This document shows, piece by piece, positions 7,468-41,141 of a stretch of DNA of 64,000 bases. How positions within the stretch are numbered: the stretch's first letter is position 1; each line of letters opens with the position of its first letter. Made by a program: the position numbers and the translations under genes. The notes below the pieces were generated by a model that did not search any database, was not told the origin of the DNA, and saw only the letters and a program-made list of their open reading frames with translations. The DNA comes from an uncultured Pseudomonadales bacterium (GTDB lineage: Bacteria; Pseudomonadota; Gammaproteobacteria; Pseudomonadales; UBA7434). The DNA lies in NCBI GenBank assembly GCA_943788835.1, contig CALSRU010000015.1, positions 1-64,000 of the forward strand. Reading direction: 5' to 3'.

Positions 7468-10420
7468 ATGATTAAGAAACAATTAGGATTGCTGGCTGGT
7501 TCACTGATGATGGCAGCCAGCTCAAGTGCTGAAATTCCGCTGAATAGCAATGTATTATTTGTCTTCAATAAAGTCGGTGCTGGAACTTACTATCAAAATT
7601 ACGGCTCGCCAGTTCAAAGCCTAGCTGACGGCTTTTCTATCGATGTAAGTGCCGCAAGTGCTGCGCTTGGCGGCTCTATTGATTCGTTCGCTATCTTAGC
7701 TTTATCAGCCGGAGCGTGCTCCCCCACTGGGTCAAATTCCTTTCCTTGTTACAACTATAATGAAGGGCTCTATGTTGAGTTAGGTGGCGGGTTAGTCTAC
7801 ACAGCTGACTCAGTTCAGGCGACGACTAACTTGTCGGCTCAGAACGCCATTTCAAACGTTCAAGACTTTCTTAGCGGAGCCGAGCTGGGCCTCAACGTCG
7901 AGGGTAGTGCCGGTGACTTTGACGCTAGTGCTTACGTTGGAGGCTACCTTATATCTAGCTGGCCCGGAAACTTTCTTCAATATGAGGGGCTGGAATGGTT
8001 CGACAACCTTGAGCTGCATCCGGACTACCCACTAGTGTTTAATAAACAAACGCTGAGCGTTTCTACGGAACCATGCGCAGTGCTGGGCTACGGCTCCTGC
8101 CTCGCATCACCCTTCCAAGACACGCCAGCGGTTATTACTGGCGCAAAAGGTAAAACCACGATACCAGGAGGAGGCCCTGCTTCCGGTGAGCTGTTTGCAA
8201 CCGATATCGATGGCCTCACAGATGGCGCATACTTCGCCGTAACGTCCCCGCCTGCTCACGGCCAAGCGCAAATTAACCCAGCAACGGGTTTGTGGACCTA
8301 CTCAGCCGATGCCTATTATTTAGGTACAGACCCCTTTACGGTAACGGTCACTGATGACTTGGGCGGCATCACTGAACAAGTTATTGGTATTTATCTTGTT
8401 ACTCAATTGGCTATTGAGCAAAAACTCACCGCCAGTGATGGTGCGCAGGCGGATTACTTTGGCAGGAGCGTCTCGATCTCGGGCGACACGGCGGTGATTG
8501 GTGCTTATGGTGATGCCAATAATGGCTCGGCTCTATGTGTATGTGCGCAGTAATGGCGTGTGGAGTGAGCAGCAAAAACTCACCGCCAGTGATGGTGCGT
8601 CGGGTGATGAGTTTGGCACTAGCGTCTCGATCTCGGGCGACACGGCGGTGATTGGTGCTTATGGTGATGACTTTTACTACAGGCTCGGCCTATGTGTATG
8701 TGCGCAGTAATGGCGTGTGGAGTGAGCAGCAAAAACTCACCGCCAGTGATGGGGCGGGGGAGGATTGGTTCGGCTCGAGCGTATCGATCTCGGACAACAC
8801 GGCGGTGATTGGTGCTCATACGGAGTACACTGATGACACGAACCCACCAGGCTCGGCCTATGTGTATGTGCGCAGTAATGGCGTGTGGAGTGAGCAGCAA
8901 AAACTCACCGCCAGTGATGGTGCGGGGCGGGATAACTTTGGCAGTAGCGTCTCGATCTCGGGCGACACGGCGGTGATTGGTGCTTATCTTGATGACGATA
9001 ATGGCTCGAGCTCAGGCTCGGCCTATGTGTATGTGCGCAGTAATGGCGTGTGGAGTGAGCAGCAAAAACTCACCGCCAGTGATGGTGCGGAGGATGATTA
9101 CTTTGGCTATGAACGTCTCGATCTCGGGCGACACGGCGGTGATCGGTGCTAGTAGTGATGACGATAATGGCTCGAACTCAGGCTCGGCCTATGTGTATGT
9201 ACGCAGTAATGGCGTGTGGAGTGAGCAGCAAAAACTCACCGCCAGTGATGGTGCGCAGGCATGATTACTTTGGCAGTAGCGTCTCGATCTCGGGCGACAC
9301 GGCGGTGATTGGTGCTAGCGGTGATGACGATAATGGCGATGCCTCAGGCTCGGCCTATGTGTATGTGCGCAGTAATGGCGTGTGGAGTGAGCAGCAAAAA
9401 CTCACCGCCAGTGATGGTGCGCAGGGGATTACTTTGGCAGTAGCGTCTCGATCTCGGGCGACACGGCGGTGATTGGTGCTCCGTATGATGACGATAATGG
9501 CTCGAACTCAGGCTCGGCCTATGTTTATGATTTTCCCAACACGCCAGCGATTATTACAGGCTCCTTAGAGGGCAGCACGACAAAAGGCGGGTTTACCTTC
9601 GGTACGCTGCAAGCACCGATGTAGATGGCCTGACCGATGGCACTTACTTTAGCGTCAGTGCCGCACCGCTTTATGGTCAAGCAATAATTAATCCCTCAAC
9701 AGGTTTGTGGACCTATTTAGCCGGGGCAGTTTATGCAGGTGCCGACCCTTTTACTGTAACCGTCACCGATGATTTAGGCGGCACCACCGAGCAGGTGATA
9801 GCCATTACCGCTATAGGCATTGATACCGACAGCGATACGATCTACGACTATCAAGATAACTGCCCGCTAATACCTAACACCAATCAGTCAGACTTTGACG
9901 GTGATAGCTTGGGTGATGTGTGTGACCCCGACATGGACGGTGATGGAACCGATAATGAATTCGATGCCTTCCCCTTAGACCCATCAGAAACCAGTGATAC
10001 TGATTCAGATACCGTAGGCGACAACAGTGACAACTGCGTTAACGATGCCAACACCAATCAGTCGAACATTGATGGCGATACCTTGGGTGATGTGTGTGAC
10101 CCCGACATGGACGGTGATGGCGTAGCCAATGCTATAGAACTTTATTTTGGTGGTGATGAAACCAATAGCGGTGATGCAGCAGTAAGCCAAGCGAATATTC
10201 TTGCACTAAGTGAAACCGCACAACAAGACGCAGACTACGACGGTGTGCCTGATGAATATGAAACGGCGGTATGGCGGTAATGCAACAAGCTCACCTATGG
10301 AGAGGTACTCAACACCTTAACCCTCATCGGCAAAAATGTTCCTGCGATGGGCGGTATAGGTTTGTTTGTGATGTTTTCATCGCTGATAGGCTTGGGATAT
10401 TTAAAGCGTAAAAAGAAGTA
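7468..10420 (+). pseudogene. Secreted FG-GAP-repeat / cadherin-like / thrombospondin-type-3-repeat surface protein, broken by multiple frameshifts
   Basis: Signal peptide at 7468; GLWTYSADAYYLGTDPFTVTVTDDLGG segments; repeats of [27 protein letters not shown]-rich calcium repeats (DTDSDTIYDYQDNCP); C-terminal VPAMGGIGLFVMFSSLIGLGYLKRKKK sorting-like tail in another frame ending at about 10420. Reading frame changes several times. Confidence 0.75.
8403..9540 (+). repeat. About seven near-identical tandem FG-GAP units of about 153-167 bp
   Basis: The segment cagcaaaaactcaccgccagtgatgg recurs near 8415, 8567, 8723, 8890, 9056, 9223 and 9386. Confidence 0.9.
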
Positions 10421-10811: not shown

Positions 10812-11522
10812 ATGAACAAGCGTTCCATAAACCACTTTATTATTTTAAAACTACTGCTGGGAGCAGCTCTTTCGGCGGGCTCTGGGCACGCAGCAGCAGC
10901 CATAGTCTCGGTCGACTCCGCAGGCGCTAGTCACTCTAATGTTGGCGACTTTCTTTCGGTGAGTTCTTATACCGGTAGCTCCTCATCTCAAGGCGCTATC
11001 GAGCAAGTATGGTCGTCGAATCGCAGCTCAATCAGCGGAGACTTCTCAATTAGCTCCATTATTTCCTTTCTAGAGGGCAATAATGTCTCGGCAAGTCCGG
11101 GGCTGGTATTTGGCTTTTCTGCCAACGAAAGAAATAATTCGCCAGAACTTACAATTACCAGTATAAATCTTGGCTTTGAGAAAGAGGACGGCTCGCTAGT
11201 GAGTTTTTCGTTAGGCGACAATCAAATAAATATAAGTGACTTTCACTCCGGCAATAGTCATGCGGAAGCTCAGCTACAAATTGACCTTGGTTTCGATATG
11301 ATGCAGGAGTGGAGTAATACCACGTCTAAAAAGATGTCGTATTCCTTCAATATCTCGAACGGTAGTAATGGACCCGAAAAGTTTTTTATTTCTAACGTGT
11401 TTACCTCAGCGCCCCCAGTTAACTACATAACCAGCATGTCAACAATTCCGCTGCCAGCACCAGCTTGGCTATTCGGTTCAGCTTTGGCAGGTTTATTAAT
11501 GGCTAGGCGCACACAAAGATGA
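10812..11522 (+). CDS. VPLPA/PEP-CTERM sorting-domain secreted protein
   Basis: N-terminal signal; C-terminal IPLPAPAWLFGSALAGLLMARRTQR. Confidence 0.75.
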   Translation: MNKRSINHFIILKLLLGAALSAGSGHAAAAIVSVDSAGASHSNVGDFLSVSSYTGSSSSQGAIEQVWSSNRSSISGDFSISSIISFLEGNNVSASPGLVFGFSANERNNSPELTITSINLGFEKEDGSLVSFSLGDNQINISDFHSGNSHAEAQLQIDLGFDMMQEWSNTTSKKMSYSFNISNGSNGPEKFFISNVFTSAPPVNYITSMSTIPLPAPAWLFGSALAGLLMARRTQR

Positions 11523-11762: not shown

Positions 11763-12230
11763 ATGACCAAACTAGCAACAAAAAGAACCCTTAAAAACGC
11801 TGACGCCCTGTGCCAAGAGTCAGGTGTACGGTTAACCGAAAAGCGCAGACGCGCTTTGACCATACTGCTTGATGCACCGGCGCCCATGTCGGCCTATGAG
11901 CTTAAAGACGAATACAAAAATGTGTATGACGAGTCGCTAACGGCCATGTCGGCCTACCGCATGCTCAATTTTTTAGTAGCAGAAACGTTGGCGCACAAAC
12001 TGCACTCTGTGAACAAATATGCGGCCTGTGAGCATATTAATTGTGCTCACTCGCATAAGGTGCCCCAATTTCTTATTTGCGACAACTGTGAAACGGTGAC
12101 AGAAGTTGGGATTAGCGCACAAACACTCAAAAGTTTAAAAAATGGTATTGCTGAAAGCGGATTTAAGCTCAATGAGCAACAGCTTGAGCTACATGGGCTA
12201 TGCAATAGCTGCTCAAACGACACCGAATAA
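11763..12230 (+). CDS. Fur-family transcriptional regulator, probably Zur-like
   Basis: Winged-helix region LTEKRRRALTILLDAPAPMSAYEL, metal-site region HINCAHSHKVPQFLICDNCETVTE and C-terminal GLCNSC. Confidence 0.8.
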   Translation: MTKLATKRTLKNADALCQESGVRLTEKRRRALTILLDAPAPMSAYELKDEYKNVYDESLTAMSAYRMLNFLVAETLAHKLHSVNKYAACEHINCAHSHKVPQFLICDNCETVTEVGISAQTLKSLKNGIAESGFKLNEQQLELHGLCNSCSNDTE

Positions 12231-12412
12231 AAAAGTTAACTACCCCCCACTGCCAGGTCTACCCGCCTTAACGAACGCCCCCTTGGCGTTCGCGATGCCA
12301 TCCATAACCCCCTCATAATCAGCTCATAATCCCCTTCATAATGCTCAGTGATTACCCAGTGAGCGAATTTTACGCTGACTAAAAAATATTCAAATCTCCT
12401 GTTGCGCTCTAT

Positions 12413-12433
12413 AAATGATATGTTGTATCATTT
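12413..12433. promoter_or_regulatory. Candidate Zur/Fur-type operator
   Basis: AAATGATA-TGTTG-TATCATTT perfect 8-bp inverted repeat, 50 bp upstream of the 12483 ATG. Confidence 0.5.
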
Positions 12434-12482
12434 GCTATATGATACGTTACAACGTACCATAAACTAACCTAGGAGTAGCAAC

Positions 12483-13217
12483 ATGATTAAGAAAATAGTT
12501 TTTGGCGGGCTCTTCGCAGTACTCGCTTCAACCGCAAGCGCACAGCATGCACACAGCGATGTCGATGCGTACATCGAGAACAGCCAATTTCTCTTCGAAG
12601 GGGCTAGCATCCTCGTCAACGGCTCTGGCTACCTGAGCACTAACATTGGCTCTGCACTATATGAAGCCGAATTTGGGGCAGAGTTTGGTGATGCCGCTAA
12701 CGAAACCGAAGACCCTGGGTTTGCCATCGATGATGGTAGCTTTAATGCAGGGGATTATTTGGCTTTTGAGGCAGTTAATACGCTGAGCTACTGGGATGGC
12801 AGCAACTGGTCAGCCTCCACAGTAGGCTCTGAGTCACTGTTCATAACCGATGTATCCGGCACTGCAACAACCACCGTGTCTGATAGCACAATCACCAACC
12901 CTATCGGGCTCATTGACCAGGCTGATGCCGAAGGCGGCGTTCATGCACACCTTGATTTCGAGATTGATTTAGCTGCAAGTCCTGGCGCTTATCTGCTTGA
13001 ATTGGTACTGCTTGGGTTTTCTGATTCAGCACTTACCAACGAAATCGTTCCTGCTTCAGATTCATTCTATATCGCTTTCAATTACGGCATGGATGACGCG
13101 CTGTTTGAAACAGGTATTGATGCGCTGGGCGTTTCAGAAGTTCCAGTACCGGGTGCATGGCTTTTCCTGACCTCAGGCATTGGTATGCTTTTGCTGGGTC
13201 GTCGCGTTAAAGCTTAG
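12483..13217 (+). CDS. PEP-CTERM secreted protein, All3515-like (paralog 1)
   Basis: Signal peptide, HAHSD near mature N-terminus, EDPGF...YWDGSNW, HAHLDFEID, C-terminal VPVPGAWLFLTSGIGMLLLGRRVKA. Confidence 0.75.
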   Translation: MIKKIVFGGLFAVLASTASAQHAHSDVDAYIENSQFLFEGASILVNGSGYLSTNIGSALYEAEFGAEFGDAANETEDPGFAIDDGSFNAGDYLAFEAVNTLSYWDGSNWSASTVGSESLFITDVSGTATTTVSDSTITNPIGLIDQADAEGGVHAHLDFEIDLAASPGAYLLELVLLGFSDSALTNEIVPASDSFYIAFNYGMDDALFETGIDALGVSEVPVPGAWLFLTSGIGMLLLGRRVKA

Positions 13218-13258
13218 CGTGCATACAAGGCACCCAAGTCATTGAGGTGCATCCATCG

Positions 13259-13294
13259 TAAAGCCCGAGATTTTTATCTTGGGCTTTACTGTTT
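13259..13294 (+). terminator. Intergenic hairpin, possible attenuator
   Basis: TAAAGCCCgAGATttttATCTtGGGCTTTA followed by ctgtttt. Confidence 0.6.
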
Positions 13295-13309
13295 TAGGTA
13301 ATTCATTAG

Positions 13310-14113
13310 TTGATCGCAATGCTCTCACTTTCAGGCCACACCGCACACCACTTGTTGACCATAACAATACTTTTAACTGGCTTCGTTTCACCACTGGTAA
13401 ATGCTCAGCACTCAGATATCTGGCTTGTGCTTGACGGCAATCAGACCGCTGTGTCGCCCATCGACCTCGAAACGCTATCTCCGGCAAAAGTAGATTGGGC
13501 TTCCGGTAACTTACTGTTCACAGGTGATTTTGACGATATTGGGCAGGGACCCACCGCTACCGATGACCCTGGTTTTCAGTCAGAACCGGGTACATTTAAT
13601 GCAGGCGCCATCTTAAACTTCCGTGCCGTTGAAGCGTTACAGTTTTGGAATGGTACTGCCTGGGGTAATACGGTTGCCGATCAGGAGCGCATTCAAATTG
13701 TAGATGCCCTGAGCAGCATCACCAGTATCAATACTGCGGGCATAATCAGCCCCGAGGGTGCAATCGACCAGATTGCAGGTGATGGTTCTGTCCATCAGCA
13801 CGTTGATTTTTCAATCGACAATGCCGCAGGCAGCGGCGCCATAGCATCTGGCGCTTATAGGATTGAGCTAGAATTATATTTAACTGATGGCGTCGGCGGA
13901 CCCATCGTGCATTCGACGTCCCAACCCGTTTCGCTCGTGTTTAACTATCAACTTACGGCCAGCGAATTTGCTAGTGCCATTAACCAGTTGACGCAACCCC
14001 AAGGCGTCAACGTTCCAATTCCTGGCATCATGCTGTTCTTCTTTGCCGGCTTGCTCGCCATCATTGCTGGATTTTCTCGCTCATTTAATCCACGTGATAA
14101 AGAGTTATCTTGA
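13310..14113 (+). CDS. All3515-like secreted protein with VPxPG tail (paralog 2)
   Basis: Aligns by eye with paralog 1: HSDIWLV, TDDPGF..GTFNAG..LNFRAVEALQFWNGTAW, VHQHVDFSID, C-terminal VPIPGIMLFFFAGLLAIIAGFSRSF. Confidence 0.7.
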   Translation: MIAMLSLSGHTAHHLLTITILLTGFVSPLVNAQHSDIWLVLDGNQTAVSPIDLETLSPAKVDWASGNLLFTGDFDDIGQGPTATDDPGFQSEPGTFNAGAILNFRAVEALQFWNGTAWGNTVADQERIQIVDALSSITSINTAGIISPEGAIDQIAGDGSVHQHVDFSIDNAAGSGAIASGAYRIELELYLTDGVGGPIVHSTSQPVSLVFNYQLTASEFASAINQLTQPQGVNVPIPGIMLFFFAGLLAIIAGFSRSFNPRDKELS

Positions 14114-15663
14114 TTTCTTATTTTATCAATAACACCTTGCTGTGGCCGGTAAAGTCAACCTGCAAATGGCTTTGTCTTGCTGTTGCGCTTGCAACATTGC
14201 ACGGCTGTGGCGGCAGTGCCAGTGGCGGCGAGCAAACTATTATTGCCTCGCCTATCGACCTGACAGGTGCAACGCTTCGGGTGAATAATGTTTCTGGCTC
14301 AGACCTAGCCGATGGCATCAATGATCCTTATCAAACTCTGCAGCACGCATTAGATCAACTGCGACCTGGCGACCTTTTAGTTATTGAAGATACTGGCCAG
14401 CCCTACAGTAGCACCGCTGTTATTGCACAAGAGCTTGATAGCAACGATAACCTCTTGCGGACCCTACGCGGCTATAAAGTGTCTGTTAGCGGCACGCAAA
14501 ATTCGCCCATTATTATTGAAGGACGTGGCTCAAATCGCCCCGAAATTAATCAACTGCAGTCAGGCAGTGTAGCCTCCAATGCCACGGTTGGCTTACTGCT
14601 CGACTGCGTTAGCCATATTGTGGTTCGTAATTTAGAGATACATAGCGCCAACGAAGCAGGCATTACCACGGCTACCGATGGAGCCTGTCAAACAAGTAAT
14701 ATCGTTATTGAAGGGAACCATATTCACAACATTTACGGTGAAAAGTACGTCGGTGGCATCCGTATGATGGGTGCGAGTGACGTGGTGATTAGCAATAACC
14801 ATATCCACGATATATTCAGCAACGAATCCGCCGAAAATAAGCCCCTAATTACGAAGGGTGCAGGCATACATAATATTATTGTAGAAAATAATCGCCTGGA
14901 ATTTATCGACACTGGCATCGCTATTAATGCTCAGGGAATTGGCAATAGCGTCTTCGGACTTGAGAACCCAGAGCCTGTGTCGGCAATACAAATAAAAAAC
15001 AACGTTTTTGATACAGTCGCCGATGCCCTAAGTTTCACCACTCATATATCGGACGCAGTCTCTGCTGATGAAACCAACACAGGTTTATTTGTCAATTTCG
15101 ATGTTGCTGGCAATACTTTCGAGCAAGTAGGCTCTGCCCTGCACCTGCGTGCCGATACAGCGCAAGATCAATCAGACAGTGCCTGCGTGTATAACAATTC
15201 CTTTATCAATACGGTGGGGCCAGCTCTGGATATTGCTGGTCTGACTAATTTAGAGCTGTTCAACAATATTTTTGTCATGCCACAAAGTGAAATATTGCTG
15301 ACCCATGCCCCTGATAACGCTGACTTGAGCAACAGTATTCTGTATAGCGATCACAATTTATTTTATGAATTTGTTTCACTGCGATGGCGCCTAGGTATTG
15401 GCGGACCGTCTGCAGCAATTTATGCCGACTTGCCTAATTGGCAGTTAGCCTCAAGTCATCCGGAACTTACCGCCAACCCAGATTTACTCGCGACGATTGA
15501 AGACCCTCAGTTCGTCGATGCGCTTAACGGGGACTATACGCTTGATATAGACTCTCCGGCGATTGCGGCTGGACGCTTTGGCATATCGATAGGTGCGAAT
15601 GATGGCCTCGTAGCGCCTGTCGATATGCCGGAGTTTCCTTGTGCTGCTCGGGAGGTAAACTAA
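14110..15663 (+). CDS. Right-handed parallel beta-helix lipoprotein (pectate-lyase-like fold)
   Basis: TTG start overlapping the upstream stop; lipobox-like LHGCGG; repeated IVIEGNHIHNI / VVISNNHIHDI / IIVENNRLEFI strands. Confidence 0.75.
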   Translation: MISYFINNTLLWPVKSTCKWLCLAVALATLHGCGGSASGGEQTIIASPIDLTGATLRVNNVSGSDLADGINDPYQTLQHALDQLRPGDLLVIEDTGQPYSSTAVIAQELDSNDNLLRTLRGYKVSVSGTQNSPIIIEGRGSNRPEINQLQSGSVASNATVGLLLDCVSHIVVRNLEIHSANEAGITTATDGACQTSNIVIEGNHIHNIYGEKYVGGIRMMGASDVVISNNHIHDIFSNESAENKPLITKGAGIHNIIVENNRLEFIDTGIAINAQGIGNSVFGLENPEPVSAIQIKNNVFDTVADALSFTTHISDAVSADETNTGLFVNFDVAGNTFEQVGSALHLRADTAQDQSDSACVYNNSFINTVGPALDIAGLTNLELFNNIFVMPQSEILLTHAPDNADLSNSILYSDHNLFYEFVSLRWRLGIGGPSAAIYADLPNWQLASSHPELTANPDLLATIEDPQFVDALNGDYTLDIDSPAIAAGRFGISIGANDGLVAPVDMPEFPCAAREVN

Positions 15664-15664
15664 T

Positions 15665-17974
15665 ATGCCCTCACCGTTTTTACCGGCCGAGCATGGCCTG
15701 CGTTACGCGCGGCAACCCTTTATATTGGTCGCCAAAAAGCTAGTGCCTGTTGCAGCAGCTGTGCTTTACCTATGCAGACCAACTGTTGTGGCGGCAGCAC
15801 AGGCTATCAGTGCAATACCGGCATTTGAAGAGGTTGTAGTAGAAGCTCAAAAAAACTTAGATAGAGCTGAGCTGGGGCTTAGCACCATAGAGATTTCAGA
15901 AGACGAACTCGTCACCAAGTTGGGGGCTACGCTGGGCGAGACGCTGGCGAATGAACCGGGTGTGCACAACGCCTCCTATGGGCCTGGGGTGGGCCTGCCC
16001 GTTTTGCGGGGTCTATCAGGGGTGCGCGTGCGCCTAAGCGAAGACGGCATTGGTGCCTGGGATGCTTCATCAATAAGCCCAGATCATGCCACCGCCATAG
16101 AGCCGGTGTTAGCAAAAAAGATCCAAATAGTGAAAGGGGCGGCGACCGTTATTCACGGCAACAATGCGATTGGTGGCATTGTTGAGGTCACCCATGGCCG
16201 CATTGCCGAGGCGTTAACTGGCCAGTCCGTGTCATCAGTTTTTGAGGCCCGTAAGGAGCTAGAGAATGATCATGAGCGAGAATCTTATGTTGGTAAGGTA
16301 AACACAGAGTTAGGCAAATTTGTTTTTCAGCTTGATGGGTTTACCCGCCACTCAAACGATATGAGTATTCCCGGTGTTGCTATTGAAGAAGCAGCCATAG
16401 AACAAATTTTTGGTATTTCCAACTCTGACAATACCTTTGGTACCGTACTGAACAGCGATGCGAATTCGCATAGCGGATCAGCCGCGCTTAGCTTTGTCGA
16501 TGACAATTTTTTTATCGGCGGCGCCTCCACAAAAATTAACAGCGAATACGGCCTGCCACCCGGTGCACACACAGAACCTCCCGACTCTCCTGGTCACAGC
16601 CACAGCCATCCCGTGGGTGACAACATTGCTGCTCAGGCGCGCGTGCGTGTCGATCTAAACCAAGATCGGCATCTGTTTAAACTCGGTGGAGTGCTAGGCT
16701 TACCCCAGCTTGAATCCTATCAGGTAACCGTCGGTAAAATTGAGTACACGCACCGAGAATTCGAGCTCGACCCGCTAACGGACAGAGTAGTTGGCGGCAC
16801 TCGCTTTTATAACGATGTGCTAGAGGCAAAAGCGGAAATCAATCACAGCTTGTTAAGCTTCGCCAATAAACAAAACAGTGGCCGCTTTGGCATGCAGTGG
16901 ATTGATAGAGAGTTTATGGCGACAAGTGAGCGTATCTTTGGCGGCGAGGATTATGTCCCTGCCACCGAGCAGCAAACTTTTGGTTTTTTCATGTACGAGC
17001 AATTTCCGTTGTCGCGGGGTAGTGCAGAAATAGGTGCTCGTTACGAATGGCAACAAATCTCTCAACGCGAATTGACGGCGCCGCTGCTACCCAACAACAC
17101 GCAATTTTTTCATCAGCCAATAACCTACCAAACCTATACATTATCTTCTGCCTTCTCGTTCGATATAACAGACCAGCAAAGTGTCATTGTAAACGTTAAT
17201 TCAGCACAACGAGCACCAGAGATACAAGAGCTTCTTTCTTTGGGCCCACATTTGGCCACCAGAAGCTACGACATAGGGCTACTGCTAGCTGAAAGAAAAG
17301 CTGGAGAAAAGCCACCTCAACCAGAAACCTTAAATAGCGCAGAAATACGCTGGCAATGGCAAAGCAAAATCGGCGAGCTAAATAGCGCTCTTTTCTACAC
17401 CCAAGCCGACGATTTTATTTATCAGCAACGACAAGAACTCGATGGTTTGTTCGATATCGCAGCACAACAGTTTAGGCCCGAGTGCACGCGGCTTGAGCAG
17501 TGCATAGCTGTATTTAGATATACTCAAGACGAAGTGACATTCGCCGGTTACGAATGGCAATGGCTGTTGCCTGCTGCCGAACTGTATAGAGGCGATGTTC
17601 AAATTGAATTTTTTGGTGATTTTGTGCGTGGAAAAATAACCAATGGTGGCGACCTGCCTCGCATGCCACCTAGGCGAAGTGGTATTGACTTAAAATGGAG
17701 CAGCCCAAGCTTAAACGCTGGTCTGCGCTACACGCGCGTTGCTGCGCAAAACAATCCAGGTAGCGACGAAGCAGCAACTGACGGCTATGTTCAGCTAGAT
17801 GCAAATCTTTCCTACACCCATCATTTTTCAAACGCTGATCATCAGGATGTGATGCTCTTTTTACAAATGAAAAATCTACTCAACGAAGACATTCGCAAGT
17901 CAACCTCGTTTTTGCGCAACTTCACCCCTGAGCCCGGCAGAGAGATTTCGCTTGGTTTGAGGTACCAGTTGTAG
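15665..17974 (+). CDS. TonB-dependent outer-membrane receptor, ZnuD-like
   Basis: Plug domain (GETLANEPGVHNASYGPGVGLPVLRGLSGVRVRLSEDGIGAWDASSISPDHA), His-rich loop PGHSHSHPVGDN, C-terminus NLLNEDIRKSTSFLRNFTPEPGREISLGLRYQL. Confidence 0.85.
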   Translation: MPSPFLPAEHGLRYARQPFILVAKKLVPVAAAVLYLCRPTVVAAAQAISAIPAFEEVVVEAQKNLDRAELGLSTIEISEDELVTKLGATLGETLANEPGVHNASYGPGVGLPVLRGLSGVRVRLSEDGIGAWDASSISPDHATAIEPVLAKKIQIVKGAATVIHGNNAIGGIVEVTHGRIAEALTGQSVSSVFEARKELENDHERESYVGKVNTELGKFVFQLDGFTRHSNDMSIPGVAIEEAAIEQIFGISNSDNTFGTVLNSDANSHSGSAALSFVDDNFFIGGASTKINSEYGLPPGAHTEPPDSPGHSHSHPVGDNIAAQARVRVDLNQDRHLFKLGGVLGLPQLESYQVTVGKIEYTHREFELDPLTDRVVGGTRFYNDVLEAKAEINHSLLSFANKQNSGRFGMQWIDREFMATSERIFGGEDYVPATEQQTFGFFMYEQFPLSRGSAEIGARYEWQQISQRELTAPLLPNNTQFFHQPITYQTYTLSSAFSFDITDQQSVIVNVNSAQRAPEIQELLSLGPHLATRSYDIGLLLAERKAGEKPPQPETLNSAEIRWQWQSKIGELNSALFYTQADDFIYQQRQELDGLFDIAAQQFRPECTRLEQCIAVFRYTQDEVTFAGYEWQWLLPAAELYRGDVQIEFFGDFVRGKITNGGDLPRMPPRRSGIDLKWSSPSLNAGLRYTRVAAQNNPGSDEAATDGYVQLDANLSYTHHFSNADHQDVMLFLQMKNLLNEDIRKSTSFLRNFTPEPGREISLGLRYQL

Positions 17975-17978
17975 TGTT

Positions 17979-18824
17979 ATGAAAAGTGATATGAAAAAAG
18001 TACTGCTCACATTACCGTTTTTTTTACTGATGCAACATCAAGTGGTCGGCGCTCAAATCATTAATACCTGTAATGATTTTGGGCATTTCGACCTGTTGAT
18101 CGATGTTGTGCCACCGGCCAGCGATGGCGCCTCGTTTGTTGTCGATTCGACAGGCGATTTCCCCGTAGAAGCCGGCACAGGTAACACCATTGTCCCAGCC
18201 GATCTGGGCGACTTCCCGGGAGGTATTCATAAAACTGATGACCCCGGCTGGCTCGTCGCAGCGGGAGATTTGGAAGACAACGAGATTCTTTGGTTCCGCG
18301 CTCTTGGGGCACTGCGCTACTGGGACAATGACACACAGGAGTGGTTGAACGCCCCGCCGGATGGTGAGCGAATCAGGTATTTTGGTGCGACTCCGCCTGC
18401 TGTTGTAATCAGCGGGACCCCGGAAGAGAAAGCATTTTATGCCGAGGGCACAATCTGGTCGTCTGAGGGTTTGAATGGTCCTATCGAAGCACCCATTGAG
18501 GCCTTTATTGGCGGCATTCACGCGCACCTTGATTTCTGTCTGGAAGCTAAAGATGGCGATTGTACGCAGCCGGGTTCCTCTGCCACAGGAACGCCCAGCA
18601 CAGGTGCCTATCTGATCGAGCTACAACTGTTCTCCAAAGCGGTATCAGACAATGGCCTACAGCAAAAGTATATTGATTCTAGCCCCGTCAGCGTCATATT
18701 GAATCACGGGCTTGTCGCCGACCAGTGCAGTGAGGCTATTGGTGCATTGGTATTTCCTGAAGCAGTTGTCGACGACTCTGCGCCGCTGCCAGCCGCTGGC
18801 ATCTTGATTATGACAGGGCCCTAG
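17979..18824 (+). CDS. All3515-like secreted protein (paralog 3), C-terminal tail apparently cut short
   Basis: FGHFDLLIDV, TDDPGW...LRYWDNDTQEW, IHAHLDF, then APLPAAGILIMTGP-stop. Confidence 0.65.
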   Translation: MKSDMKKVLLTLPFFLLMQHQVVGAQIINTCNDFGHFDLLIDVVPPASDGASFVVDSTGDFPVEAGTGNTIVPADLGDFPGGIHKTDDPGWLVAAGDLEDNEILWFRALGALRYWDNDTQEWLNAPPDGERIRYFGATPPAVVISGTPEEKAFYAEGTIWSSEGLNGPIEAPIEAFIGGIHAHLDFCLEAKDGDCTQPGSSATGTPSTGAYLIELQLFSKAVSDNGLQQKYIDSSPVSVILNHGLVADQCSEAIGALVFPEAVVDDSAPLPAAGILIMTGP

Positions 18825-18939
18825 GCTCAGCCGCCGCCCAACGTCCCGCCGCGCCCTTCGCCGCGCTAAAAGCATGGGCGTGTTTTTCCCGCCTGCCGAT
18901 GAGCAGGACTAACGCGCCAAATGAACCGCATGCGCCAAA

Positions 18940-28977: not shown

Positions 28978-30660
28978 ATGAAAAAAACAATCGTTATTGC
29001 ACTAGCATTGCTTACCATTGCTGGCGCCACAGCTTGGCTAAACCGCATTGAAATATTACTCGCGATCGTGCAATACAAAGCAAAAACTGAACGGACGATC
29101 GCTCCCCACCGTGCTGTTGAGTGGCAGCAAGGTCCGGCAACAGCAAGCAGTTCAGCCAACGCCCGACCACCCAACATTATCTTAATACTAGCCGATGACC
29201 TAGGTATCAATGATGTTTCAACGTTCGGGGGCGGCGTTGCCAGCGGCCGCGTAACCACCCCTAACATAGACCAATTAGCCGCACAGGGGGCTATTTTTAA
29301 TCAGGCTTATGCCGGCGCCGCAACCTGCGCACCGTCGCGGGCAATGATCATGACAGGGCGCTACCCCACGCGAACGGGCTATGAATTCACACCCACTCCC
29401 TCGGGCATGGGTCCTATGATTAGCATCATAGCCAACAGCATCGAGCGAAACCTGCCTCCCGCCCTATTCAACGAAGAAGCAGCCAACGCTGCGGCCGCTT
29501 ACGAAGATCAAGGCTTACCCGGTTCAGAAATCACCATTGCAGAGATACTAAAAGAGCGCGGCTATCACACTGCGCACATTGGCAAGTGGCATTTGGGTCG
29601 CAGCGTGGGCATGACGCCCAACGACCAAGGCTTTGATGAAAGTTTGTTTATGACTAGCGGCCTCTTCCTTCCGGAGGATGACCCTAATGTGGTGAATGCC
29701 AAGTTAGCTTTTGACCCTATCGATAGATTTTTATGGGCACGTTTAACGTACGCCGCCGCTTTCAACAATACCGACCTCGAAGCTTTCCGACCCGGCGGCT
29801 ACCTTACCGATTACTGGACCGACGAATCGATTAAGGTCATTGAAGCGAATAAAAATCAGCCATTTTTTCTTTATCTAGCCCACTGGGGCGTGCATACCCC
29901 TTTGCAAGCCACCCGCGCAGATTATGAAGCCGTGGGTGATATAAAACCGCATCGGCTGCGTGTTTATGCCGCCATGCTGCGCGCCCTGGATCGCAGTGTA
30001 GGGCGTATTATGCAAAGCCTAGAAGAGCAAGGCTTAGCTGAAAATACCATCGTCATGTTTTCCAGCGATAACGGCGGGGCTGGCTATATAGGCCTTAAAG
30101 ATATCAACGCCCCCTACCGCGGCTGGAAAATGACCCAATTTGAAGGCGGTCTTCGCGCACCCACTTTTATGAAATGGCCCGCCAAAATTGCGCCGGGAAC
30201 GATGGTAGACGAACCCGTAACACACATCGACTTTATGCCCACGCTGACTGCAGCGGCTCAAGGAACAATCCCTGAAGGCCTTGCCATTGACGGCGAGAAT
30301 TTGTTGCCTCTGGTGATTGAGCCCGGCCAAGGGCAGGCCCAAGAACCTTGGTCTCGTGAAACTTTATTTTGGCAAAGCGGTTATTATCGAGCGGTGCGGC
30401 ATGGCGATTGGAAGCTACAAATCTCCGAGAGACCTAAAATGAGCTGGCTCTACAACCTTGAGGACGACCCTACCGAGCAAAACAACCTAGCCGACGTGCG
30501 CATCGATAAACTCAATGAGCTCAATGCGCTATTAAATGCACATCAGGAAGCCGCTCGCAAACCCCTCGAGCCCTATGTAATGGAGGGACCTATTGCTGTT
30601 GACAAATCATTGGTAGAACCGTTTACTCAAGGCGACGAATATATTTACTGGCCAAACTGA
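28978..30660 (+). CDS. Type I sulfatase
   Basis: PNIILILADDLG; CAPSRAMIMTGRYPTRTGY formylglycine motif; HIGKWHLG. Confidence 0.92.
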   Translation: MKKTIVIALALLTIAGATAWLNRIEILLAIVQYKAKTERTIAPHRAVEWQQGPATASSSANARPPNIILILADDLGINDVSTFGGGVASGRVTTPNIDQLAAQGAIFNQAYAGAATCAPSRAMIMTGRYPTRTGYEFTPTPSGMGPMISIIANSIERNLPPALFNEEAANAAAAYEDQGLPGSEITIAEILKERGYHTAHIGKWHLGRSVGMTPNDQGFDESLFMTSGLFLPEDDPNVVNAKLAFDPIDRFLWARLTYAAAFNNTDLEAFRPGGYLTDYWTDESIKVIEANKNQPFFLYLAHWGVHTPLQATRADYEAVGDIKPHRLRVYAAMLRALDRSVGRIMQSLEEQGLAENTIVMFSSDNGGAGYIGLKDINAPYRGWKMTQFEGGLRAPTFMKWPAKIAPGTMVDEPVTHIDFMPTLTAAAQGTIPEGLAIDGENLLPLVIEPGQGQAQEPWSRETLFWQSGYYRAVRHGDWKLQISERPKMSWLYNLEDDPTEQNNLADVRIDKLNELNALLNAHQEAARKPLEPYVMEGPIAVDKSLVEPFTQGDEYIYWPN

Positions 30661-39314: not shown

Positions 39315-41141
39315 TTGACATCGGCAAGCACTCAAGGCTCCAGTTGGCCACGACTACTCTCGCTCGCCATAGTGATGCCGCTCTTGGTAAGCAGCTTGCC
39401 CACGCTGGCTGCGTCCATGCCAACATCGGTATCTACTGAAGGCTCGGAGCGACCCAATGTTGTTCTCATTCTCGCTGATGACCTTGGTTTCACCGACCTC
39501 GCTTCCTATGGTAGTGAAATCAGCACCCCCAACCTATCAACGCTTGCCCAAAATGGGCTAAGTTTCACCAATTACCATACTGCCGCTAGCTGCGCACCGA
39601 CACGGGCAATGCTACTGACTGGGGTTAACAATCACCGTGCGGGTGTGCCCAATATCCCCGAGATGATCCCACCCCGACAACGACGCCATGCCCATTATCA
39701 AGGCACGCTTGGGCGCAATGTGGTCACTGTCGCTTCCCTACTACAAGACAGCGGCTACCACACCTACATGGCAGGAAAATGGCACTTGGGTATGAAGCCA
39801 GACTTACTTCCGAGTCAACGTGGATTTGAACGAACCATAACGTTAGCTGACTCAGGAGCTGACAATTGGGAGCAAAAACCCTACTTACCAATATACGAAA
39901 AAGCTAATTGGTTCGCTGATGGCGAAGAGATCACGCTGCCAGAGGACTTTTACTCGTCACGTTTTTTGGTTGATAAGGCCATTGAATTTATTGACAGTAA
40001 TCACGCCGATGGCAAACCATTCTTCACTTATCTACCCTTTCAAGCGGTGCATATGCCGGTACAGGCACCCCAAGCATTTATTGATCATTACATGGGTGTT
40101 TATGATGCTGGCCCTCAGGCATTGCGCGAACAGCGCCATGCTAAAGCTACGGCATTAGGAATTGTGCCCGCCAATAGCCCCATGGTAACTATGGCAACTA
40201 CCGATGATTGGCTGGCAATGTCCGCTGAAAAACAGCGCTATGAAGCCAAGCGCATGGCTGTGTATGCAGCAATGGTCGAAGCGATGGATTACCACATCGG
40301 CCGCCTTATTGAATATCTAAAAGAAACGGACCAATACAAGAATACGATCTTTATATTCGCCTCAGACAATGGCAGTGAGGCTAGTGGCCTCCCCAATCAG
40401 AATAGTTCACTCAACCAACGGGTCTTGCGCGCACAAAACTATAACGTCGATTATGCAACGCTAGGGCTACAAGGTAGCTTCAATGCCATTAGCCCGAGTT
40501 TTGCCAGCGCTAGCGCCTCTCCACTGGCCTACTACAAATTTTATGTTGGTGAGGGTGGTATGCGTGTGCCGCTGATTATCGCCGGCGAATCAATTCCTAT
40601 AAAAAATCAGCTTTCTAACGCCTTTAGTTTTGTCACCGACATTACCCCAACCATTTTAGCGCTCACACAAACAGCGAAGCCAAAGGAGCATTACGGCGGA
40701 AGAAAAGTTGAAGCCATCTTGGGGCGCAACCTCCTACCTTTACTTAACGGGCACACTGAGCGCGTCTATGCCGAGCAGGATTCCGTGGGCTACGAACTTG
40801 CCGGGCATTCCGCCCTATTCCAAGGTGACTTCAAAATCTCACTCAACCGCGCACCGCTTGGTGATAATGAATGGCATCTCTACAATATTGTGACCGACCC
40901 TGGTGAAAGCAAAGACCTCAGCTCAATGATGCCTGCTAGGCTGCAAAATATGCTTGGCTTGTACCATCAATTTGCTATTGATAATAAAGTTCTTCCAGTT
41001 GCTGCTAACTATCATGCACAGCGTCAAGTCGCCTTAAACGGCTTACAACAACGATTTGGTTCACAGATACTGCTCGTCATCTTGACCATGTTAGTTGTTT
41101 TGCCGTTTTACGTAGTCTATCGGCTAACTCACAGACAATAA
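39315..41141 (+). CDS. Type I sulfatase (TTG start as listed)
   Basis: PNVVLILADDLGF; CAPTRAMLLTG; MAGKWHLG. Confidence 0.9.
   Translation: MTSASTQGSSWPRLLSLAIVMPLLVSSLPTLAASMPTSVSTEGSERPNVVLILADDLGFTDLASYGSEISTPNLSTLAQNGLSFTNYHTAASCAPTRAMLLTGVNNHRAGVPNIPEMIPPRQRRHAHYQGTLGRNVVTVASLLQDSGYHTYMAGKWHLGMKPDLLPSQRGFERTITLADSGADNWEQKPYLPIYEKANWFADGEEITLPEDFYSSRFLVDKAIEFIDSNHADGKPFFTYLPFQAVHMPVQAPQAFIDHYMGVYDAGPQALREQRHAKATALGIVPANSPMVTMATTDDWLAMSAEKQRYEAKRMAVYAAMVEAMDYHIGRLIEYLKETDQYKNTIFIFASDNGSEASGLPNQNSSLNQRVLRAQNYNVDYATLGLQGSFNAISPSFASASASPLAYYKFYVGEGGMRVPLIIAGESIPIKNQLSNAFSFVTDITPTILALTQTAKPKEHYGGRKVEAILGRNLLPLLNGHTERVYAEQDSVGYELAGHSALFQGDFKISLNRAPLGDNEWHLYNIVTDPGESKDLSSMMPARLQNMLGLYHQFAIDNKVLPVAANYHAQRQVALNGLQQRFGSQILLVILTMLVVLPFYVVYRLTHRQ

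Follow-up and report, generated by a model that had tools for sequence, protein, structure and literature searches.

A candidate Zur-controlled zinc import locus with a ZnuD-like receptor and three exported paralogs in an uncultured Pseudomonadales bacterium

Among the described systems closest to the locus considered here, the zinc-binding exoprotein ZepA of Anabaena, which carries the motif H-x2-9-H-[FY]-H, is exported and feeds zinc to the cell; its receptor was not found, the hand-off was left open, and unnamed PEP-CTERM proteins and TonB receptors lie near zepA (PMC10957091). The receptor ZnuD, originally taken for a haem receptor, has the zinc ligands Asp99, His100, Glu340 and His499 (PMC4557270). 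Here we analyzed the window, a stretch of 64,000 nucleotides (contig CALSRU010000015.1, positions 1 to 64,000, assembly GCA_943788835.1) from an uncultured marine Pseudomonadales bacterium with a 2.76-Mb genome, and in it a locus of six predicted open reading frames (ORFs) on the plus strand, encoding the Fur-family regulator Zur, an exported protein A, its paralog B, a beta-helix lipoprotein, a TonB-dependent receptor and a further paralog, C. The locus is very likely a Zur-controlled zinc import module, and on balance we favor the fuller reading of a Zur-repressed module in which A, B and C capture zinc at the surface for the receptor. Gene linkage, Zur boxes, receptor ligands, paralogy and the surface display of C in relatives, all read from sequence, carry the argument.

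Gene layout and Zur control

The locus is laid out as follows.
11763–12230, plus strand: zur, Fur-family zinc-responsive repressor (Pfam FUR, NCBIfam NF008646)
12413–12433, no strand: Zur box AAATGATATGTTGTATCATTT, a near-perfect 21-bp palindrome, core 12416–12430 conserved in genus loci
12483–13217, plus strand: protein A, exported, signal peptide, VPLPA/PEP-CTERM-like tail (31- and 35-sequence alignments, AlphaFold2)
12552–12560, plus strand: A codons H24-S-D26, H-x-D motif (35-sequence alignment)
12942–12950, plus strand: A codons H154-A-H156, H-x-H motif, both His invariant in 35 sequences
13258–13289, plus strand: terminator-like hairpin between A and B, 32 nt, seen in the sequence, with counterparts in relatives
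13310–14113, plus strand: protein B, A paralog, hydrophobic C-terminal tail (tblastn, tree)
14110–15663, plus strand: right-handed beta-helix lipoprotein, lipobox Cys33 (Pfam PF13229, 7-way alignment, AlphaFold2, Foldseek)
15665–17974, plus strand: ZnuD-like TonB-dependent receptor (NCBIfam ZnuD, PDB 4rdr match, tree)
16082–16087, plus strand: receptor D140-H141, aligned to the zinc ligands ZnuD Asp99-His100
16589–16624, plus strand: receptor extracellular His-rich loop PGHSHSHPVGDN, placed at the ZnuD loop 3 clusters
16757–16759, plus strand: receptor E365, aligned to ZnuD Glu340
17249–17251, plus strand: receptor H529, aligned to ZnuD His499
17979–18824, plus strand: protein C, exported paralog, candidate metal set H36, D38, H181 and H183 (35-sequence alignment, tree)

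A sequence-only reading of this stretch had proposed Zur control of a ZnuD-type zinc receptor with exported His-containing partners, and the boxes, models and linkage described below support it. The coordinates bear out its five same-strand genes behind a Zur-like one, the last four (13310–18824) being nearly gapless and the B and helix genes overlapping by 4 bp. The start of B is likelier at ATG 13319 than at TTG 13310, because B of the genus member G007 begins there and lacks the TTG. The zur product scored 38.3 bits against Pfam FUR (cutoff 23.1), and its best NCBIfam match was the Zur model NF008646 (E 9e-25, 87.3 bits, under the cutoff of 167), compared to 38 bits for the Fur model. It holds two C-x2-C pairs, CDNC and CNSC. 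Besides zur, the genome holds a single Fur-family gene (C3:4435, 142 bits), which is taken to be Fur.

The box lies ~50 bp upstream of the A start, and its minus strand fits the Pseudomonas aeruginosa Zur consensus GWWAYWNNNTWHCR (PMC10393844). Its core, TGATAYGTTRTATCA, was found in three genomic copies against 0.027 expected: one before A, one before a TonB receptor gene and one ~32 bp before a ZigA gene. This ZigA gene is broken by a contig end, and the matching remainder, followed by DUF1826, znuC, znuB, znuA and cobW, stands at the end of contig C12, so that the box most likely heads a zigA/znuCBA zinc operon with a presumed join across the contig gap. In the genus, the window core precedes A in each of the six loci that include this region, and G024, G176 and Marinibactrum have TGTTAT(GTT)ATAACA-type boxes upstream of A, giving nine loci with Zur boxes at the module. 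In distant modules, TGTTATGTTATAACATAACA or a similar sequence takes the place of the window core. Together, these results make the predicted regulation of the module by Zur well supported. The copy before the TonB receptor gene (G000:C10:9204; L056:5205) is the third perfect Zur box of the genome; this receptor is a different one from that of the module, and genes for membrane proteins of the ABC-2 type (DUF3526) follow it.

The hairpin that follows A has the same sequence in G007, and hairpins of unlike sequence stand at the equivalent site in G001 and G005. The presence of unrelated hairpin sequences at one site suggests that the hairpin is under selection and that A would be produced in excess over the downstream genes; a single simple transcript of A and B is weakened by the intervening hairpin. 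A plasmid search gave zero matches.

The receptor and the exported proteins

We compared the receptor against family models, structures and relatives. It scored 202.6 bits with the NCBIfam ZnuD model (NF038289), whose cutoff of 950 was passed by 0 of 185 gammaproteobacterial genomes; haem-receptor models came second at 89 bits, under half of the ZnuD score. In a PDB search (E 1e-5), the sole match was ZnuD 4rdr (E 2.6e-38). All four ZnuD zinc ligands are kept, as D140, H141, E365 and H529, and they are invariant in 41 receptors (14 from modules and 27 other ZnuD-like proteins). Score, structure and ligands all favor ZnuD over another substrate class, and they agree with the sequence-only reading, which had picked out the His-rich loop. 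By its sequence the receptor is ZnuD-like, with predicted zinc transport. In the tree, module receptors form their own clade (97/96), sister to the G193 receptor, which has no A/B/C gene within ~8 kb. The genome also encodes a second ZnuD-like receptor without partners nearby.

The paralogy that the sequence-only reading had seen by eye in A, B and C was borne out by tblastn with A in its own genome (B, E 1.2e-25; C, E 1.1e-6). The repeated HxH motifs it described were not: the three proteins have only one HxH in common, and the N-terminal motif is H-x-D. The DPG, W and HxH blocks are conserved across alignments of 20, 31 and 35 relatives. By C numbering, D38, H181, H183, P89, G90, G209, A210 and S234 do not vary in the 35 sequences, while H36 (H24 in A) is nearly invariant (≥90%). 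The ligand-type residues of A are three His and one Asp (H24, D26, H154, H156). AlphaFold2 modelled A as a beta-sandwich (predicted local distance difference test, pLDDT, 85.5; predicted template modelling score, pTM, 0.78) with the H-x-D and H-x-H pairs, at i, i+2 spacing, on or beside a strand; the four residues likely meet in space. A PDB fold search of A returned weak immunoglobulin-like or pilin-type matches, all with a template modelling score (TM) < 0.42.

The proposed label "All3515-like", after the family to which ZepA belongs, did not survive at the family level. With a threshold as loose as E 10, the model NF040463 (cutoff 75 bits) still matched none of the three proteins, while as a positive control it scored 272.8 bits on the ZepA of locus L071, which adjoins a C gene in a Burkholderiales metagenome-assembled genome. 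No HFH, HYH or HxxHFH motif occurs in the A, B and C translations, and four ZepA ORFs carry the motif. With hhalign the likeness was weak (probability 29%, 39 columns, C-terminal end only). Membership of All3515 was rejected on the NF040463 null result and the differing motifs. The A5 hidden Markov model did match ZepA at E ~1e-4, but restricted to the mature domain it reached only E 0.06 or worse, and we attribute these matches chiefly to the signal and the tail. The three proteins matched no family among the NCBIfam and Pfam models, the ZrgA family (PF10986) included. As judged from their sequences, A, B and C are a previously unnamed family separate from All3515/ZepA. We did not find the family described in the literature searched, and the unnamed PEP-CTERM proteins near zepA (PMC10957091) may include it.

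In a 34-protein tree, C forms one clade (100/99) and A with B the other, B being nested within A. The tails of A and B (VPVPGAW... and VPIPGIM...) are reached by no model; Burkholderiales relatives of the family pass the PEP-CTERM model TIGR02595, and the host genome encodes an XrtD-like exosortase (376.8 bits, cutoff 400). C ends differently (18785–18824), in the conserved ...LPAAGILIMTGP, PAAGILIMTGP, with the pattern [LV]PAAG[IV]LIM[TS]GP. C has neither a hydrophobic nor a basic tail, and its end reads like a shortened exosortase signal that lacks the membrane and Arg parts; a frameshifted hidden tail was ruled out, as no frame continues the end. In G256, the C domain is an autotransporter passenger (PF03797). 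A single 2134-aa ORF of G802 (L106:2223-8627) joins a C domain, apparently also a passenger, to passenger repeats, an apparent autotransporter barrel and a ZnuD-like receptor; this one open frame would encode two outer-membrane barrels. The A-like protein of G305 ends in a His-Asp repeat run, and ZrgA is encoded nearby. Just upstream of zur (10812–11522), the window encodes another exported protein with a VPLPA-CTERM-like tail, whose G007 counterpart is 98.7% identical.

The beta-helix lipoprotein, recognized as such from the start, matches PF13229, and AlphaFold2 gave a right-handed beta-helix (pTM 0.77). Its lipobox Cys33 is invariant in a 7-way alignment, and its top Foldseek matches were GH136, alginate/pectate lyases and similar folds.

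Distribution of the module

A synteny search recovered the complete order zur-A-B-helix-receptor-C in four genus members (G007, G002, G001 and G005) with different flanking genes. Fragments of the module stand at contig ends in G006, G008 and G011, and some members of the genus lack it. Outside the genus the core is an A-like gene, the receptor and a C-like gene. This core was present in every complete distant locus inspected, namely Microbulbifer, Marinibactrum, G176, G256/G127, G305, G759, G816, G820, G802 (two loci) and G954, all of them other Gammaproteobacteria, of which G759, G816, G820, G802 and G954 are Burkholderiales genomes. The helix lipoprotein was seen only in Pseudomonadales modules; it is divergent in Microbulbifer, where B is absent, and in Marinibactrum halimedae, where the Zur box sits between the helix gene and A. 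Genome scans, with a C-only alignment among the queries, showed the module to be rare: it was found in 5 of 368 other gammaproteobacterial genomes (one through a weak tail match alone) and, phylum-wide, in 2 of 398 further genomes.

Zinc genes neighbor several of these loci: ZigA in Marinibactrum (692 bits, cutoff 600), ZrgA in G305 and, within a 14-kb stretch of G802, genes for ZepA, TonB, ExbB, ExbD, the receptor, C, A, a COG0523 GTPase and a Fur-family protein. In two genomes of Burkholderiales, G802 and G954, a genuine ZepA gene adjoins the module, from which the zinc hypothesis gains. Among 249 Burkholderiales genomes, ZepA was found in 5 and A/C in 6, with both in 4 (4 of the 5 ZepA genomes; p = 4.8e-7). 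Counted by genus the co-occurrence gave p = 5.7e-5, the safer value because two of the four shared genomes come from one genus. No ZepA turned up in the genus members searched, where control genomes gave no signal while the same model did in the Burkholderiales scan.

Two other features of the window lie outside the locus. An FG-GAP/Big_9 repeat protein gene (7468–10280; array 8417–9529) has a tandem 166-bp period whose frame rotates from unit to unit, leaving the ORF in pieces, through either real decay or an assembly error. Two sulfatase genes were seen at 28978–30660 and 39315–41141.

Proposed mechanism, alternatives and known systems

We propose that when cell zinc drops, Zur would leave the box at 12413–12433 and the operon from A would be expressed, with the hairpin after A probably raising the abundance of A over the other genes. 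A and B would be exported by their N-terminal signals, and their predicted exosortase-type tails would probably serve to keep them at the surface or have them processed there; C would be exported with its different end. In each protein, the H-x-D and H-x-H set probably holds Zn(II). Beyond the outer membrane, the three would gather zinc and hand it on to the ZnuD-like receptor, which may import it with TonB energy through its His-rich loop and its buried D-H-E-H site; ZnuABC and ZigA-type chaperones would act further inward. That A, B and C bind zinc and give it to the receptor we judge somewhat more probable than not, and we infer the zinc binding, the contact with the receptor and the direction of transfer from the comparisons above.

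Several observations weigh against this mechanism. The same four ligands are present in stand-alone ZnuD-like receptors that have no A/B/C nearby (checked within ~1.5 kb, and within ~6–8 kb for two), which indicates that zinc transport as such can do without A, B and C. An A-like gene in G802 (L108) has no neighboring receptor, no Zur box was found at the Burkholderiales locus L071, and C in this clade lacks an obvious anchor.

The main rival to zinc capture and hand-off is a co-receptor role, which we consider unlikely though worth keeping in view. TbpA/TbpB-type systems pair an outer-membrane TonB receptor with a surface-exposed partner, TbpB being a lipoprotein that binds a host protein. 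Likewise, A, B and C would not ferry zinc but would strip it, beside the receptor, from carriers such as ZepA, organic ligands or polysaccharide. The tethering of the C domain to the outer membrane as a passenger in G256 and apparently G802, the ZepA genes beside two modules and the keeping together of A and C as separate old lineages all fit this role. However, the genus members searched lack ZepA, the A tail resembles an exosortase signal and not a lipid anchor, and the residues that do not vary are of the kinds that bind metal, not those of a surface for binding proteins.

A second alternative, which we find improbable, casts A, B and C as proteins of the surface or of a biofilm matrix that zinc starvation induces and that have no part in transport, with the helix protein processing surface polysaccharide. 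It would account for the PEP-CTERM-like tails and the polysaccharide-lyase-like fold of the helix protein, but the unit kept outside Pseudomonadales is A, receptor and C without that protein, the module receptors are one clade tracking A and C, and HxD and HxH are invariant. Least probable of all is a Zur-regulated module for another ligand (haem, nickel or a metallophore) bound by A, B and C, for although haem models rank second on the receptor and ZnuD itself was first assigned to haem, the ZnuD score is more than twice theirs, the four zinc ligands including the acidic D and E are kept, and the neighbors are ZigA, COG0523, ZrgA and ZepA.

Zinc capture by A, B and C remains the preferred reading, and it can be set beside the known systems. 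ZrgA (PF10986), whose gene adjoins the module of G305, is likewise an exported zinc protein with a link to Zur, and A, B and C do not match its family. TbpA/TbpB and the module both join a TonB receptor to a surface partner; A, B and C presumably bind metal, and the two are likened by description, not by sequence. No dedicated secreted partners are known for neisserial ZnuD itself. The module receptor shares with Neisseria ZnuD (PDB 4rdr, NF038289) the fold family, the four high-affinity zinc ligands and a His-rich loop after YGLP, but scores well below the model cutoff and belongs to a separate clade tied to A and C.

For ZepA, whose receptor question stands open (PMC10957091), the module supplies a concrete candidate in its specific clade of ZnuD-like receptors, which always occurs alongside exported proteins of the A/C type and in two genomes alongside ZepA as well. 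Zinc delivery by extracellular proteins becomes testable in cultured Marinibactrum halimedae, and an unrecognized family can be named. The chances seem to us evenly divided on whether A, B and C are a new extracellular zinc-binding family with a dedicated, co-inherited ZnuD-type receptor clade, with A-type and C-type subunits serving one receptor to which ZepA may also deliver. The family resembles ZepA/All3515 in being Zur-linked, with a signal peptide, a predicted exosortase-type tail, a beta-sandwich, a His motif and nearby TonB receptors, and ZepA is even encoded in the module locus of G802 and G954. It differs in its lack of an NF040463 match, in its H-x-D and H-x-H motif and in the pairing of A and C with a dedicated receptor.

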